Source of the DNA: Methanoculleus sp.
GTDB lineage: Archaea; Halobacteriota; Methanomicrobia; Methanomicrobiales; Methanoculleaceae
Assembly: GCF_030019085.1 (NCBI RefSeq)
Contig: NZ_JASEFJ010000001.1
Coordinates: forward strand, 62,001-126,000
DNA length: 64,000 bases
Direction: 5' to 3'
Part shown: positions 26,208 through 40,095 of the stretch, piece after piece
Numbering within the stretch: position 1 is the first letter of the stretch
How the letters are laid out: every line of letters begins with the position of its first letter
The notes under the pieces: generated by a model
The model's database searches: none
Seen by the model: the letters and a program-made list of their open reading frames with translations, nothing else
What the model was told of the DNA's origin: nothing
Position numbers and translations under genes: made by a program

Positions 26208-27362
26208 ATGAAGTACATCGTCATTCTTGGAGACGGCATGGCCGATGAGCCGCTTGCCGAACTTGGGGGCAGGACACCCCTTGAGTACGCAGAGACGCCG
26301 AACATGGACAGGATCGCGTGCGAAGGCCGTTGTGGGATGCTCCGGACGGTGCCTGAAGGATTCGAGCCAGGGAGCGATATCGCAAACCTCTCCGTCCTGG
26401 GCTACGACCCGCGTCTCTCCTATACCGGGAGAGGACCGCTCGAAGCGGCCAGCATGGGCATAGACCTCGGGGAGGGGGAGATGGCATACCGCTGCAACCT
26501 GGTCACGATCAGGGACGGGTTGATGGAAGATTTCAACGCCGGGCACATCTCGAGCCCCGAGGGGGCAGCCCTCCTGCGAGATTTGGATGCTGTGCTCGGG
26601 GATGTCAGGGTATATCCTGGTATCAGTTACCGCAACCTCCTCGTACTCCCGGATGGACGCGGATCTCTTACCACCCCTCCACACGACATTGTCGGCCGCC
26701 AGATCCAGGAGTATCTCCCGCGTGGGGAGGATGCCGCTCTACTCATTGAGTGCATGGAGCGGTCGTGTGAGGTCTTTTCCGATCACCCGGTCAACCGTCG
26801 CCGCGTCCAGGAGGGGAAGATCCCGGCGACCGGGATCTGGCCCTGGAGCGCTGGGAAGAGACCATCGCTTGAGCCTTTCAGCGCGAAGTACGGCCTTGCC
26901 GGCGGCGTGATCTCGGGGGTCGATCTCCTGCGCGGCATCGCCCGCCTTGCCGGGATGGAGGTGATCCGTGTTCCGGGCGCCACAGGATTCATCGATACTG
27001 ACTATCAGGCGAAGGCCCGATATGCGCTCGACGCCCTCGACCGTCTGGACTTCGTCTACATGCACGTCGAGGCCCCTGATGAGGCCGGGCATATGGGTAG
27101 CGTCGAGGAGAAGGTGCGGGCGATCGAGCGACTGGATGAAGCGATCGGGATAATTCTCGAGCGCCCGGGGACGATCGTCGCTGTTCTCCCTGACCACCCC
27201 ACCCCGATACGCTGCAGAACCCATACCGGTGAGCCGGTACCTTTTGCGGTGCTCGGGAAGGGGAAGGACGAAGTCAGGGCGTTCTCTGAACGGGAGGCGA
27301 GGAAAGGCTCGTTTGGGCTCATGGAGGCGAACGGGTTTCTTTCGATGCTCTTCTCACCGTAA
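26208..27362 (+). CDS. apgM: Cofactor-independent phosphoglycerate mutase (archaeal type)
   Basis: 384 residues from the ATG at 26208. It interconverts 3- and 2-phosphoglycerate. The alkaline-phosphatase-like core is visible: ILGDGMADEPLAELGGRTPLE with the metal-binding Asp, NLSVLGYDP, VEAPDEAGHMG, and LPDHPTPIRCRTHTGEPVPF near the end with metal-binding residues. Length and motif order match archaeal ApgM rather than bacterial GpmI. Confidence 0.93.
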   Translation: MKYIVILGDGMADEPLAELGGRTPLEYAETPNMDRIACEGRCGMLRTVPEGFEPGSDIANLSVLGYDPRLSYTGRGPLEAASMGIDLGEGEMAYRCNLVTIRDGLMEDFNAGHISSPEGAALLRDLDAVLGDVRVYPGISYRNLLVLPDGRGSLTTPPHDIVGRQIQEYLPRGEDAALLIECMERSCEVFSDHPVNRRRVQEGKIPATGIWPWSAGKRPSLEPFSAKYGLAGGVISGVDLLRGIARLAGMEVIRVPGATGFIDTDYQAKARYALDALDRLDFVYMHVEAPDEAGHMGSVEEKVRAIERLDEAIGIILERPGTIVAVLPDHPTPIRCRTHTGEPVPFAVLGKGKDEVRAFSEREARKGSFGLMEANGFLSMLFSP

Positions 27363-27428
27363 CCGCGCCAGAGAGCGGAAACCTGATTTTTCAGGAGGGT
27401 CTCACCGTAACTGGAGATGCGCCCCCGT

Positions 27429-27499
27429 GGCACTGTATCGATGGAGAATCCCCCTCTGGGGGGGCTTACAGAGAGGGGGGGACGTCCCCTTCCCCTGTC
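27429..27499 (-). repeat. GC-rich repeat unit B, copy 1
   Basis: Read on the minus strand: GACAGGGGAAGGGGACG... then AGAGGGGGATTCTCCATCGATACAGTGCC. It matches copies at 39773-39848 and 40018-40095 on the plus strand. No coding potential. Confidence 0.6.
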
Positions 27500-27810
27500 T
27501 TGACGTGTTACCGGGCACTCTTTTCCGGGATTCAGATCACCCCCACCTTCCGGCGCTTTCAGCGCCTCCTCCCGCCCTCCTAGAGGGGGCTGGCAGTGAT
27601 CGTCGCTAGACCCGGATGGCCGTGTCAGGGGAGTGAACGAGACGATCCGGATAGATACCCTCCAGAACACGGCACCCATGGATAATCGCCCCTGTCTCCT
27701 GCATCTCAGGTCGAACGGTATTCGCTGACCATCCCCCCACCACCCGGCCGCGATAGGTGGGATGGCCGTGCATGGGTCTTCTCCAGAGTCTCTCCCGTGT
27801 TTCCGGTTTT

Positions 27811-27928
27811 AAACTACCTGGATCTAATATCAGGCCTTAGAGCGAGTGTAGTTTTGCAAGGGAAGCGATCTTTAAGCCTTGGTGTGCGGATCTAACGGCA
27901 AAATAAGGCCTGAAGATCCAGGTAGTTT
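27811..27928 (-). repeat. 118-bp element with 15-bp terminal inverted repeats, copy 1
   Basis: It begins with AAACTACCTGGATCT and ends with the exact reverse complement AGATCCAGGTAGTTT. A second copy lies inverted at 39517-39633 with only scattered differences over the whole length. It has no ORF. Size and structure resemble a miniature inverted-repeat element or a mobile RNA hairpin unit. Confidence 0.7.
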
Positions 27929-27947
27929 TGGGGTGTGGGCTACTGGA

Positions 27948-28110
27948 ATATTATCTCACAAAAACCCCGGCTACCCCGGGGTACGGATAAAGGGGTGGTC
28001 TGTGGCGCTGTGGATGTACCTGGAATTCGTCCCCGGCGAGGTTCATTAGAGCAAGGGCGCAGCCTGATGAGACCTGGTTTGATGGCCTCGCAGGGTCAGG
28101 TGTTGATGAT
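27948..28110 (+). repeat. Dispersed repeat D, copy 1
   Basis: Starts CTCACAAAAACCCCGGCTAC and contains GGCGAGGTTCAT and GGTTTGATGGCCTC. The same order of blocks is found on the minus strand at 32990-33200, with moderate divergence. It lies just upstream of the RFAP-synthase fusion gene, so it may also carry that gene's promoter. Confidence 0.45.
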
Positions 28111-28157
28111 GGGCCACCAACCTTTTTGTGCTCTACATCTAAAATGCCTACATCGAT

Positions 28158-29705
28158 ATGGAACCCCTCACGACAGAAGAGATCGTCGAGAAGATCCGCA
28201 AGATCGAGGAGGGCGTGGGCAGGCTCTCTCCGATGCAGAAAGTCCTCATCGGGACCGACGGTTCGGTGACCGGGCTGCTCGAGATGGCGACAGGCCACCC
28301 GGTCAGCATAACCACCCTTGTCCAGGACGTTATCAGTGCTGATGTAGGGGCAGCGGATGAACTTGGTATAGAGCCCGGAGAAGAGATCAACTACCGCATT
28401 GTGGAGTTGAGGGACAGCGTAACCGGCGATGTGCTCATCTACGCGGTCTCCATCACCCCGCTTCGGCGTCTCGCCCCGGAGTTCCGGCATGACCTGATGC
28501 GGGCGGATATCCCCATAGGCAGGATACTCAGGCGTCACAGGATTGAGTCACGTCGGGAGATCACCGATGCAAAGATCATCCGGGCCGGCACAGATCTTGC
28601 GAGGTCGTTCAAAGTCAACCGCTGCGAGCCGATGGTCTCGCGGAGATACCGGATCATCCATCAGGAGGAGCCGCTGATAGTAATCGAGGAGATCTTCCCC
28701 TGCACCGCTTTTACGGACGAGATCCGGGTGGTGGTCGACGCACCGTCCCGCATCCATATTACCCTGATCGAGATGAACGGTGCCTCCGGCCGGGTGGATG
28801 GCAGTGTGGGGGTCACGCTCGATGAACCGGGCTGCGTTCTGGACGCGCGCAAAGCCACCGGAATAGATGTTCGTGGTGGCAACGATGAGGCGCGACGCAG
28901 GGTTGCCGATGCGGCCCGGGCAACGAGGGAGGCATTTGGTCTTCCCGGGGGTGCGGAGATTGTCCTCCACTCCACCGCAAGGCAACATGCCGGACTCGGG
29001 AGCGGGACTCAGATCGCACTTGCCACGGCCGCAGCCATCTGCCGCCTATACGAGCGGGATGTTTCAGTCGCTGACATCGCAAGGGTTGTTGGTCGCGGCG
29101 GCACGTCAGGGATCGGCACGGCGGCGTTCGAGCAGGGCGGTTTCATACTGGATGGGGGACACCGGTTCGGGTCCCCGGGCGGGAAACAGGATTTCCGCCC
29201 GTCGTCTGCATCAAAAGGGATTGCACCGCCGCCTGTTCTCGCACGCCACCGTTTTCCTGAGGATTGGGAGATCCTGCTGGTTACGCCAGAAGTCAGTACT
29301 GGGGCGCACGGGACAGCGGAGGTCGATATCTTCCGCACCCACTGCCCTGTGCCGATAGAGGAGGTTCGAGAAGTCTGCCACGAGGTGCTCATGCGGATGA
29401 TCCCGGGGGTCGTCGAGCACGATCTCGACCTCTTCGGTTCGGCGATAAACCGAACGCAGCACCTCGGGTTCAAGAAGGTTGAGGTCGGCCTGCAGCACCC
29501 CGTTGTCCCGGCACTCCTGGAGGGTCTGGTTCAGGCCGGTGCTGCCGGGGCAGGACTGAGTTCGTTCGGGCCGACGGTCTATGCCATAGGTGATTCCGGT
29601 ATGGGGGAGGTTGCCCGGGCGGCAGAAGAGGTGCTCGGCGAGATGGGCGGGTCGGTGACCCTGACAAAGGCGAGGAACTGTGGTGCAAACCTGCGTGCGG
29701 GGTAA
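28158..29705 (+). CDS. Fusion of DUF98 chorismate lyase-like domain and beta-RFAP synthase (methanopterin biosynthesis)
   Basis: 515 residues, about 190 longer than a stand-alone beta-ribofuranosylaminobenzene 5'-phosphate synthase. Residues 1 to about 185 match the DUF98/Rv2949c-like family, whose mycobacterial member is a chorismate pyruvate-lyase making 4-hydroxybenzoate; see SPMQKVLIGTDGSVTGLLE and the ending YRIIHQEEPLIVIEEIFP. From about 190 onward is a GHMP-kinase-fold RFAP synthase: PSRIHITLIEMNG, STARQHAGLGSGTQIALA, and GGTSGIGTAAFEQGGFILDGGH. The synthase joins an aromatic acid to PRPP in the first committed step of methanopterin synthesis. The fusion ties together making and using 4-hydroxybenzoate. 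Confidence 0.88.
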   Translation: MEPLTTEEIVEKIRKIEEGVGRLSPMQKVLIGTDGSVTGLLEMATGHPVSITTLVQDVISADVGAADELGIEPGEEINYRIVELRDSVTGDVLIYAVSITPLRRLAPEFRHDLMRADIPIGRILRRHRIESRREITDAKIIRAGTDLARSFKVNRCEPMVSRRYRIIHQEEPLIVIEEIFPCTAFTDEIRVVVDAPSRIHITLIEMNGASGRVDGSVGVTLDEPGCVLDARKATGIDVRGGNDEARRRVADAARATREAFGLPGGAEIVLHSTARQHAGLGSGTQIALATAAAICRLYERDVSVADIARVVGRGGTSGIGTAAFEQGGFILDGGHRFGSPGGKQDFRPSSASKGIAPPPVLARHRFPEDWEILLVTPEVSTGAHGTAEVDIFRTHCPVPIEEVREVCHEVLMRMIPGVVEHDLDLFGSAINRTQHLGFKKVEVGLQHPVVPALLEGLVQAGAAGAGLSSFGPTVYAIGDSGMGEVARAAEEVLGEMGGSVTLTKARNCGANLRAG

Positions 29706-30116
29706 GGCCCCTTCCTATAACCTCAGTGGTCGTGATACCCGGAGGGGAGTGGCAGGATCGCTTCCAAAGGACCGGGGTGGTGCATCAGCCCCGTGCATCA
29801 TCATCGCTCAGTGGGGGTAACTCTCATCATCTGCACCTCCTCCTGTCCAGGTACGGATTACAGGGCCGGGATATTAAAGCTCCCCGGCTAGTTCAACTCC
29901 CGATCTTATGGCGAACCCCCATGCCTCTCTCTCTGCGACCTCCAGGGCGTGCTTGCTGATCGACCGGTGGGGGATCGATTAATGCATGGCCGCAGCCTGC
30001 TCACACCGGTTTTGCAGGGCCGCGATGGCCATTTTGTAAGTATTTCATCCTGTTCCGCTGCTACATGAGGCTCACCGGTGGAACTGTATATATTGGAGTC
30101 CAATATTTATTTAGAT
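29706..30116. other. Intergenic region with promoter of the zinc-finger/cdc6 genes
   Basis: No credible gene. On the minus strand a short open frame near 29880-29980 reads SISKHALEVAEREAWGFAIRSGVELAGEL, but a stop lies directly upstream and it lacks a start; it may be a gene remnant. Near the end, CTGTATATATTGG (about 30083-30095) is a TATA candidate 25-30 bases before the ATG at 30117, suggesting a leaderless transcript. I searched by eye for origin recognition boxes and saw none. Confidence 0.5.
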
Positions 30117-30816: not shown

Positions 30817-31962
30817 ATGAAGAAGAACCTGCTCATGTGGGACGAGACGCTATTTCGCGATCCTGAGGTATTCGAGATCGATTACGTCCCCGAGCAGTTC
30901 AACCATCGTGAAGCCCAGATACAGGAACTGGCCTTCCAGGTCAGGCCGGGGCTGCGCGGTGGCCGACCGTTGAACACCATCTGTCGGGGTATTCCGGGAA
31001 CCGGGAAGACTACCAGTGTCAAGAAGGTGTTTTCAGAGATTGAGGAGGCAACCCGGAAAATAGTCCCCGTATACATAAATTGCCAGATCGACAACACAAG
31101 GTTCGCCATCTTCTCGCAGATCTACCAGCGCGTCACCGGCAGGTCGCCACCACCCTCTGGCACCTCCTTCAAGCGGGTCTTTGAAACCCTGGCCCGTTTC
31201 CTGCAGGAAAAAGACCTTGTACTGCTTGTGGCGCTCGATGACGCGAACTACCTTATCGCAGAGAACGAGATCAACCAGGTCCTCTACACCCTCCTGCGCT
31301 CGTACGAGGCATACCCCCATGTTCGGACAGGTGTTATTGCTATAGTCAGCGATATGTCGGTCACGCTGCAGAATGAGGTCGACGTCAGGGTTGCGTCAGT
31401 ATTCCGGCCTACTGAGATATACTTTCCCCCTTACTCGGCGGCGGAGGTCCATGATATCCTCAAGGAACGGGTTATTCAGGGATTTTATCCGAACGTCCTC
31501 AGTCAGGAGATGCTGGATCTCGTTGTCGAGCAGACGCTGAAGAGTGGTGACCTCCGTGTCGGGATCGATCTACTCAAGCGTGCTGCACTGAACGCCGAGC
31601 GGGATGCGCGCAGGTCGATCGAGGAGGAAGATATCTGCAAGGCATACGAGGTTTCGAGGTATCTCCACCTTGCATTCTCGCTTCGGGCGCTCAATTCCGA
31701 GGAGCGTGAGGTCCTTGCCGGTATCGCGGAGATGTCGGCCCTTGTGGATACGGAGATAAGAACCGGAGACGTCTACAGCTTCGTAAAGGAGAGGGCTGGC
31801 GTCAGTTACACCAGGTTCTACGGGATTATTCAGAAGTTCGATACCATGCGGCTCCTGAACCTTCACTATTATCGTCATGGGCGGGGGCAGACACGGCTGA
31901 TCAGCCTGAGATACGACCCTGATCGCGTGCTTGAACACCTGGGACGGGTGCAGTCGATTTAA
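30817..31962 (+). CDS. Orc1/Cdc6-family replication initiation ATPase
   Basis: 381 residues from the ATG at 30817 (GATGAGGAG upstream is a good ribosome-binding site; the ORF track starts six codons earlier). It contains Walker A GIPGTGKTTSVKK, a Walker B segment LVALDDANYL, the sensor region, and a C-terminal winged helix ending TRLISLRYDPD. Orc1/Cdc6 proteins bind origin DNA and load MCM. The Walker B has Asp-Asp rather than the usual Asp-Glu, so ATP hydrolysis may be altered. Most methanogens of this group have more than one Orc1; which one this is cannot be told. Confidence 0.92.
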   Translation: MKKNLLMWDETLFRDPEVFEIDYVPEQFNHREAQIQELAFQVRPGLRGGRPLNTICRGIPGTGKTTSVKKVFSEIEEATRKIVPVYINCQIDNTRFAIFSQIYQRVTGRSPPPSGTSFKRVFETLARFLQEKDLVLLVALDDANYLIAENEINQVLYTLLRSYEAYPHVRTGVIAIVSDMSVTLQNEVDVRVASVFRPTEIYFPPYSAAEVHDILKERVIQGFYPNVLSQEMLDLVVEQTLKSGDLRVGIDLLKRAALNAERDARRSIEEEDICKAYEVSRYLHLAFSLRALNSEEREVLAGIAEMSALVDTEIRTGDVYSFVKERAGVSYTRFYGIIQKFDTMRLLNLHYYRHGRGQTRLISLRYDPDRVLEHLGRVQSI

Positions 31963-32011: not shown

Positions 32012-32959
32012 ATGCTTAGCGTGAACGAACTTGCACTGGATATTTTTGAGGAACTTTTCGAATATGCGGAGGAGTTCTGTGCTGTCCCGCACGAACTCGA
32101 TAACGGCGCACGCATCGTCGACTGCGGGGTAAGCACTTCCGGCGGCTACCGGGCAGGGCGAAGTTTTACCGAGATCTGTATGGGCGGGCTCGGTGAGGTC
32201 GACATTACGATGGGCCGGATCAGGGATGTTCCCATCCCCTTCATAGAAGTCAGCACCGATTTCCCGGCGATTGCGTGCCTTGGGGCACAGAAGGCTGGCT
32301 GGACGATCAATGTCAATAAGTACTTCGCCATGGGTAGCGGTCCTGCACGGGCTCTCTCTCTCAAGCCACGCCACACCTATGAGGTCATAAACTACGAGGA
32401 TGAGTTCGACTACGCGGTCATCTGCCTTGAGAGCGACCATCTTCCGAACGGCGGCGTTATGGAGCATATCGCCGATGCCTGCAATGTGGATGTGGCAAAC
32501 ACCTGTGCGGTTGTTGCTCCAACAGCATCGCTCGTCGGTTCGATCCAGGTTGCGGGCCGGTGCGTCGAGACGGCGGTCTACAAGTTGAACGAACTCGGGT
32601 TCGATACAAAGAAGATCTCGGCGGCTATCGGGCATGCACCCATCGCGCCCATAAAGAAGGATGGCACAAAGGCGATGGGCAGCACCAACGACGCAACGAT
32701 CTACCATGGCAGCATCATGCTGACGATGAAGGCACCGGAGATCAAGGATTACCTCGAGAAGATCCCGAGCAACAGATCGAAGGGTTACGGAAAACCGTTC
32801 TACGACATCTTCAAAGAGGCTAACTTCGATTTCTACCAGATCGATACCTCGCTCTTCTCGCCGGCAGAGGTGGTAATCAATGAACTCTCCGAGGGTGCTG
32901 TCTACCATGTTGGGGCTGTCAATCCCGAGGTTACCCTGAAGTCTTTTGGCTTCCTTTAA
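32012..32959 (+). CDS. mch: Methenyltetrahydromethanopterin cyclohydrolase
   Basis: 315 residues from the ATG at 32012; the ORF track's 27 extra N-terminal residues overlap the promoter area. It catalyses formyl-H4MPT to methenyl-H4MPT, the third step of CO2 reduction to methane, in the cytoplasm. Typical Mch segments include GARIVDCGVSTSGGYRAG, DFPAIACLGAQKAGW, MGSGPARAL and GHAPIAPIKKDG. Single gene; a repeat follows downstream. Confidence 0.96.
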   Translation: MLSVNELALDIFEELFEYAEEFCAVPHELDNGARIVDCGVSTSGGYRAGRSFTEICMGGLGEVDITMGRIRDVPIPFIEVSTDFPAIACLGAQKAGWTINVNKYFAMGSGPARALSLKPRHTYEVINYEDEFDYAVICLESDHLPNGGVMEHIADACNVDVANTCAVVAPTASLVGSIQVAGRCVETAVYKLNELGFDTKKISAAIGHAPIAPIKKDGTKAMGSTNDATIYHGSIMLTMKAPEIKDYLEKIPSNRSKGYGKPFYDIFKEANFDFYQIDTSLFSPAEVVINELSEGAVYHVGAVNPEVTLKSFGFL

Positions 32960-39289: not shown

Positions 39290-39516
39290 GAGCGGTCTCT
39301 CTATTGAACGTTCGGGACCAGCTGAAGAATTTCTCTTGCCATCTCGGGTGGCATTGGCCGTAGGCTCAAAGACCAGCACGTGTAAGATCCTCTTCTGTGC
39401 CTCATCCGCCGTCGTGATCCGATCTTTTGTGGGAAAACGCCTCATTTATGAGGCCATCAGTTCAACGTTCTGAGATATAGACTTGCCACCTATCTTCCTG
39501 TATTTAGCTCCATCCG

Positions 39517-39633
39517 AAACTACCTGGATCTTCAGCCTTATTTTGTCGTTAGATCCGCACTTCAAGGCTCAAAGATCGCTCCCCCTGCAAAAGTACACTT
39601 GTTCTGTGGCCTGATATTAGGGTAGCTTAAAAC
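39517..39633 (+). repeat. Inverted-repeat element, copy 2
   Basis: AAACTACCTGGATCTTCAGCC through ...CCTGATATTAGGGTAGCTT. It aligns along its whole length with the reverse complement of 27811-27928. The right terminal repeat is damaged: ATCCA is deleted and one T is changed. The left terminal repeat is intact. Confidence 0.7.
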
Positions 39634-39772
39634 TGCGAAAAATGTGTATCCTCTGCATTGTTGGCGGGCAATTGCCAGAAACACGGGGGAGACTCTGGAG
39701 AAGACCTATGCACGGCCATCCCTGGTTGGTGGGGTTGGTCAGCGAAAGGCCGTATCCCTGGAGACGTGTAGA

Positions 39773-39848
39773 GACGGGGGAAGGGGCGTTCTGCCCACTC
39801 CCCGGTCAGCCCCACCTCTGAGGGGCGATTCCCCATAGATACAGTGCC
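39773..39848 (+). repeat. GC-rich repeat unit B, copy 2
   Basis: GACGGGGGAAGGGGCG, then CACTCCCCGGTCAGCCCC, ending GATTCCCCATAGATACAGTGCC. The core GGGGCGATTC..CATNGATACA is shared with the other two copies. Confidence 0.6.
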
Positions 39849-39915
39849 ATAGAGGGGGGACTTATTCACCCGGTTTTCCTGTGAGAAACGTCCTGGAGAG
39901 TTTACTACTGTCCCC

Positions 39916-39967
39916 GTGCACGGCCTTCCCTGCTATCGCCATACAATGCCCGCCTCTCCCGAGGGGG
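39916..39967 (+). repeat. Repeat unit C, copy 1
   Basis: GTGCACGGCCTTCCCTGCTATCGCC followed by CAATGCCCGCCTCTCCCGAGGGG. It resembles 40153-40201, and the first part also matches CTATGCACGGCCATCCCTGG at about 39707. The B-C order repeats as B-C-B-C with a period of about 240 bases, so the block looks like a degenerate tandem duplication. Confidence 0.45.
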
Positions 39968-40017
39968 CGGGATGAGGCCGCAGCGGTCTGGTGGTTGGTG
40001 TCTGTGTGACACGAGGA

Positions 40018-40095
40018 GACGGGGGAAGGGGGTGTTCCATCCCCCTCCCCGTCAGCCCCTCTCCAGGGGCAGCGATTCTCCATCGATACACTGCC
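40018..40095 (+). repeat. GC-rich repeat unit B, copy 3
   Basis: GACGGGGGAAGGGGGTGTTCC, then CCTCCCCGTCAGCCCCTCTC, ending GATTCTCCATCGATACACTGCC. Closest in its last 20 bases to copy 1 at 27429. Confidence 0.6.

Follow-up and report, generated by a model that had tools for sequence, protein, structure and literature searches.

A DUF98 domain fused to beta-RFAP synthase in Methanoculleus and other Methanomicrobiales, a probable chorismate lyase of methanopterin synthesis

Introduction

Does one protein of Methanoculleus sp. both form and use the aromatic acid from which its methanopterin would be made? The question is raised by a gene in a stretch of 64,000 nucleotides from this archaeon, which is the whole DNA analyzed here (the window). 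A preliminary description had recognized in it a 515-residue protein with a DUF98 (chorismate lyase type) domain followed by a complete beta-RFAP synthase.

RFAP synthase, EC 2.4.2.54, is defined with 4-hydroxybenzoate as substrate. Among the DUF98 relatives, the cyanobacterial chorismate lyase family reported by Pfaff in 2014 is said to serve plastoquinone, and we take this family to be a member of PF01947. Rv2949c forms p-hydroxybenzoate for phenolic glycolipids (PMC7205293). We found no measured activity of an archaeal DUF98 in the literature searched, and no earlier direct genetic link of a 4-hydroxybenzoate-supplying enzyme to methanopterin. Likewise, no description of a fusion of DUF98 with RFAP synthase was found in the open-access papers searched, and the main text of a survey of archaeal fusions does not mention methanopterin (PMC11237513).

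Results

The fused gene lies at 28158..29705 on the forward strand and is a single uninterrupted frame of 515 residues, from the ATG at 28158 to the TAA that ends at 29705. In profile searches, its N-terminal domain (residues 1-188, 28158..28721, forward strand) matched PF01947 over residues 33-182 with 92 bits against a cut-off of 22, covering positions 3-143 of the 149 in the model. The C-terminal RFAP synthase domain (residues 192-512, 28731..29693, forward strand) matched NF040726 over residues 193-511 with 386 bits (cut-off 328, model positions 3-326 of 327) and TIGR00144 over residues 192-512 with 351 bits, above the curated cut-off. The GHMP kinase N and C domains correspond to residues 249-326 and 414-488 of the fused protein. 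Between the two parts is a confidently modeled junction (residues 179-198, 28692..28751, forward strand). The domain boundary had been placed at about residue 190, which is right. Both the DUF98 domain and the RFAP synthase that had been described are present, complete and conserved, and we found no lack of a DUF98 match, no loss of conserved residues and no frame error. The genome contains no other DUF98 and no second RFAP synthase that exceeds the family cut-off.

In the C-terminal domain, R198, H277, T284, R313, T316, S317, S349, E388, and K439 correspond to R19, H99, T106, R135, T138, S139, S174, E211, and K263 of ForT, whose roles in PRPP binding and catalysis have been described (PMC8183095, PMC9832568). 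G279 and S282, which count with these among the residues of the PRPP-binding GHMP loop and the 5'-phosphate/catalytic site, are present too. All 55 fused and all 21 stand-alone RFAP synthases retain R198, R313, T316, and E388. ForT, the formycin C-nucleoside synthase (6yqq, 8ap0, 8aoz), shares the fold of the C-domain at about 30% identity and has no DUF98 domain. Its chemistry is of the same type as that of RFAP synthase, in which PRPP and an aromatic carboxylic acid are joined by decarboxylating C-C bond formation (PMC8183095, PMC9832568). However, two substrate-contact residues of ForT, S21 and Q266, are H200 and E442 in the window protein. Every RFAP synthase compared has H, E, and G in place of S21, Q266, and S142 of ForT, and these changes are therefore differences between enzyme types and not damage. 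The characterized RFAP synthases (MJ1427, AF2089, and MTH0830; NF040726, TIGR00144) match the whole C-terminal half, including the PRPP-site and catalytic residues. They are stand-alone proteins, whereas here DUF98 precedes with a 19-residue junction and E205 stands for the usual aspartate. This position, D19 of the Methanothermobacter thermautotrophicus enzyme, is E in the window protein and one other genome and D in 53 of the 55 fused proteins; the D19N mutant of the M. thermautotrophicus enzyme kept activity (PMC6787355). R26 of that enzyme is R212 here and is kept. A second RFAP-synthase-like GHMP protein (G000:C2:35756-36682, locus L151, with relatives L063-L080) occurs in nearly all genomes sampled and scores about 85 bits, below the cut-off. 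Lacking equivalents of ForT R33, R135, and T138, it probably is not a PRPP enzyme of the RFAP synthase type.

For the N-terminal domain, we compared 83 fused and stand-alone DUF98 sequences. D34, G35, S36, T38, T53, N78, R80, S98, P101, P119, G121, E130, R132, R133, R162, and Y164 were invariant; R80 and R162 were found in all 83 rows, and E178 in 82. Q56 also ranks among the invariant residues of the domain. By eye, in a weak alignment, R80, R162, and E178 are the candidate counterparts of R76 and E155 of the Escherichia coli chorismate lyase UbiC, whose C-terminal TE-type motif aligns with E178. UbiC shares the overall fold family with the N-domain and belongs to a different Pfam family, and the alignment gave no significant sequence similarity between the two. 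All 53 fused homologs aligned match PF01947. The Rv2949c-like chorismate pyruvate-lyases of this family (Rv2949c of Mycobacterium tuberculosis, stand-alone AF1396/2nwi) have the profile, fold, and invariant residues in common with the N-domain. These known members are stand-alone, whereas the N-domain is fused to RFAP synthase. The cyanobacterial chorismate lyase equivalog NF037993 scored 43 bits against a cut-off of 175, which places the N-domain, as far as profiles tell, in relation to that group but outside the equivalog.

AlphaFold2 was run on the alignment of the 53 fused proteins. The whole chain was modeled with a mean pLDDT of 91.8 and a pTM of 0.88, and the position of the two domains relative to each other is probably a confident prediction. 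The top PDB matches were ForT for the C-terminal half and 2nwi, the stand-alone DUF98 of Archaeoglobus fulgidus, for the N-terminal half (TM 0.9 normalized by target, 44% identity). In the 53 fused proteins, the equivalents of E178 and R198 are separated by 19 residues in all except two, in which the spacing is 26. This short and constant junction at least holds both halves in a fixed arrangement.

The fusion is widespread. PF01947 was found in 101 of 150 sampled genomes of the order Methanomicrobiales, and in nearly all of the 101 it was part of a frame spanning roughly 500 residues or more that also contained an RFAP synthase match; matches outside such long frames were mostly at contig ends. 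About 75 one-frame fusions were present among the good genomes of the order. A search by name retrieved fused proteins of Methanoculleus, Methanogenium, Methanofollis, Methanoregula, Methanolinea, Methanocalculus, Methanothrix/Methanosaeta, and Ca. Methanolliviera. The preliminary description had spoken of this organism, and that scope was too narrow for a fusion that extends through at least one order and also occurs in Methanotrichaceae and Ca. Methanolliviera. Where the method converged, comparison with close relatives gave an omega of 0.05-0.11 for each half, reflecting purifying selection on both.

The RFAP synthase tree unites the fused forms from Methanomicrobiales and Methanotrichaceae in a single group (SH-aLRT 98) that leaves out Ca. 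Methanolliviera. They also group in the DUF98 tree, with a long-branched family inside the group. Two changes of fusion state are needed on the C-domain tree and four on the N-domain tree, where long branches meet. A single origin of the fusion is not rejected (p-AU 0.40 and 0.51). One genome (G113) has a lone DUF98 that sits within the fused group in the DUF98 tree, and therefore its RFAP synthase half has been lost.

The upstream neighbor of the fused gene is an apgM-family 2,3-bisphosphoglycerate-independent phosphoglycerate mutase gene (26208..27362), and Orc1/Cdc6 (30817..31962) and mch, the gene of methenyl-tetrahydromethanopterin cyclohydrolase (32012..32959, 2.3 kb downstream), follow, all on the forward strand. 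The window shares the string SDR-apgM-fusion-hypothetical-orc1-mch with G004, Methanofollis, and several genomes of Methanolinea and Methanoregulaceae. This string ties the fused gene to methanopterin weakly, because mch acts on methanopterin but unrelated genes are included. In family f7, two separate genes for RFAP synthase and DUF98 lie side by side in reversed order, which is an independent link of DUF98 to RFAP synthase and a stronger one than the neighbor string. Co-occurrence is likewise stronger support than the string: when two search listings for the phylum Halobacteriota were compared by eye, 215 of the 217 genomes with DUF98 also matched RFAP synthase with E below 1e-87. In the other two, the gene is cut by a contig end (G088) or the RFAP synthase half is lost (G113). 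The converse fails: many genomes have RFAP synthase without DUF98, and therefore DUF98 is not the sole source of the aromatic acid in archaea.

Two features of the flanking DNA were also observed. The gap between apgM and the fused gene (27363-28157) is 795 bp long, compared with about 76 bp in other Methanoculleus. Parts of it match 39514-40095 of the window and L151 with 84-95% identity over 45-126 bp, which suggests a dispersed repeat. At 29782-29834 on the reverse strand, Rfam models matched a C/D-box small RNA (snoPyro_CD, 43.8 bits with a gathering threshold of 45; sR1, 38.4 bits, E 3.5e-7). Its boxes ATGATGA and CTGA and its guide GAGTTACCCCCA are largely unchanged at 12 loci throughout the order. 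In Methanoculleus the RNA follows the fused gene; elsewhere its place is between apgM and that gene, and genomes that have lost the fused gene still carry the RNA.

Losses within Methanomicrobiales were counted by eye from the profile searches in the 108 good genomes of the order sample. Both parts were present in 78 (one cut by a contig end), DUF98 only in one, stand-alone RFAP synthase in six, and neither in 23, nine of which are single-contig genomes. The 24 genomes without canonical RFAP synthase (G016, G063, G068, G080, G001, G007, G013, G017, G025, G030, G031, G033, G037, G041, G042, G054, G065, G066, G078, G082, G087, G113, G117, and G121) all keep mptA, and a pterin-binding dihydropteroate-synthase-like gene is kept in all 11 of them that were tested. 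Remnants of the fused gene were found right after apgM, at the syntenic site, in three congeners: residues ~437-480 with a broken frame in G016 (L176), about the first 44 codons in G063 (L174), and two short pieces in G068 (L175). TrpE was not detectable in G068, G080, and G033 and is interrupted in G113. Four genomes of family f6, genus g20 (G024, G048, G070, and G074; loci L054, L173, L037, and L034) have a stand-alone RFAP synthase. It falls outside the group of fused forms from the order and was thus possibly acquired separately.

Several explanations of the losses were tried and rejected. There were no runs of N at the syntenic sites of relatives, as masked sequence would have left. The second RFAP-synthase-like gene is an unlikely stand-in, being below the family cut-offs and present in genomes of both kinds. 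Loss of chorismate supply does not apply, with chorismate synthase in all 108 good genomes, and a switch to PabB was not seen either, as a second chorismate-binding enzyme was found in none of 24 relatives tested for it.

Discussion

It is highly probable that the fused protein is a bifunctional enzyme which converts chorismate to 4-hydroxybenzoate and then ribosylates it with PRPP under decarboxylation. Homology suggests both activities and the choice of substrate. The N-terminal domain would strip pyruvate from chorismate, and the C-terminal domain would convert the resulting 4-hydroxybenzoate and PRPP to 4-(beta-D-ribofuranosyl)hydroxybenzene 5'-phosphate with loss of CO2 and pyrophosphate. 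This product would be the first committed arylamine precursor of (tetrahydro)methanopterin. Channeling, with 4-hydroxybenzoate handed directly from one site to the other, is a speculative addition. The genome encodes chorismate synthase. A PF00425 search of the genome found a single chorismate-binding enzyme, within a trpB-trpE-trpG-trpD string and best scored as TrpE (513 bits, just below the cut-off of 517.7), and no dedicated PabB; 4-hydroxybenzoate is therefore favored over p-aminobenzoate. The metabolic reading of the fusion is very likely right. The proposal that methanopterin begins from chorismate-derived 4-hydroxybenzoate holds in that the fusion ties DUF98 to the pathway. It is less novel than had been claimed: the 4-hydroxybenzoate route itself is not new, as passages in PMC8183095 and PMC3261824 credit White 2011 with 4-hydroxybenzoate as the RFAP synthase substrate in Methanocaldococcus jannaschii. 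What is added is the fused architecture and its breadth.

The N-domain could instead be a non-catalytic, UTRA-like effector-binding regulator of the RFAP synthase half, sensing 4-hydroxybenzoate, p-aminobenzoate, or a pterin. In the fold search, the N-terminal half alone matched UTRA effector domains of GntR/HutC proteins and then, slightly lower, E. coli chorismate lyase (1g1b/1jd3/1g81), so that the fold by itself is compatible with an enzyme as well as a sensor. The UTRA profile also matched 27 of the 53 fused members, but it did not match the window protein at all, which matches PF01947 strongly; the 515 residues also contain no DNA-binding domain, such as the winged helix attached to UTRA in GntR/HutC effectors. 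The nearest solved structure is a stand-alone DUF98. The residues that are invariant in fused and stand-alone forms include a polar set more like an active site than a drifting sensor, and G113 retains the DUF98 half with no RFAP synthase. Taken together, the DUF98 profile, its invariant positions, and the association with RFAP synthase favor an enzyme over a sensor, and we consider the regulator improbable. Somewhat less probable still is that both halves are enzymes but p-aminobenzoate is the in vivo substrate of the RFAP synthase half, with the 4-hydroxybenzoate of the N-domain serving something else. RFAP synthases of M. thermautotrophicus do accept p-aminobenzoate in vitro (PMC6787355). 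However, the genome lacks a dedicated PabB and the 24 relatives tested lack a second chorismate-binding enzyme, DUF98 is tied to RFAP synthase itself both by the fusion and by the separate neighboring genes in family f7, and the M. jannaschii pathway, as reported in passages of PMC3261824 and PMC8183095, begins with 4-hydroxybenzoate. That an assembly or sequencing error joined two neighboring genes is a negligible prospect for which nothing was found in favor. It is already refuted by the same fusion in dozens of independent assemblies, single-contig genomes included: the 53 aligned fused homologs have a constant junction, dN/dS is low in both halves, and the one-frame fusions number about 75.

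The bifunctional enzyme therefore remains the preferred reading, and the conserved physical link assigns DUF98 to the step before RFAP synthase with strong genomic support. We hold a wider picture tentatively, and as a whole it is rather doubtful: 4-hydroxybenzoate would pass directly from lyase to synthase, and about one-fifth of Methanomicrobiales would have lost the whole arylamine branch (DUF98 and canonical RFAP synthase) but not the pterin branch or methanogenesis, relying on an unknown enzyme or on the arylamine precursors of neighbors. About one-fifth of the good Methanomicrobiales genomes are without the fusion, which raises the question of how these archaea make the cofactor. The fusion also serves as a genomic marker that immediately separates the genomes that have it from those that do not. 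Together with the adjacent genes of family f7, the conserved fusion supplies the direct genetic link between a 4-hydroxybenzoate-supplying enzyme and methanopterin, and a single purified protein would suffice to test the first two arylamine steps.
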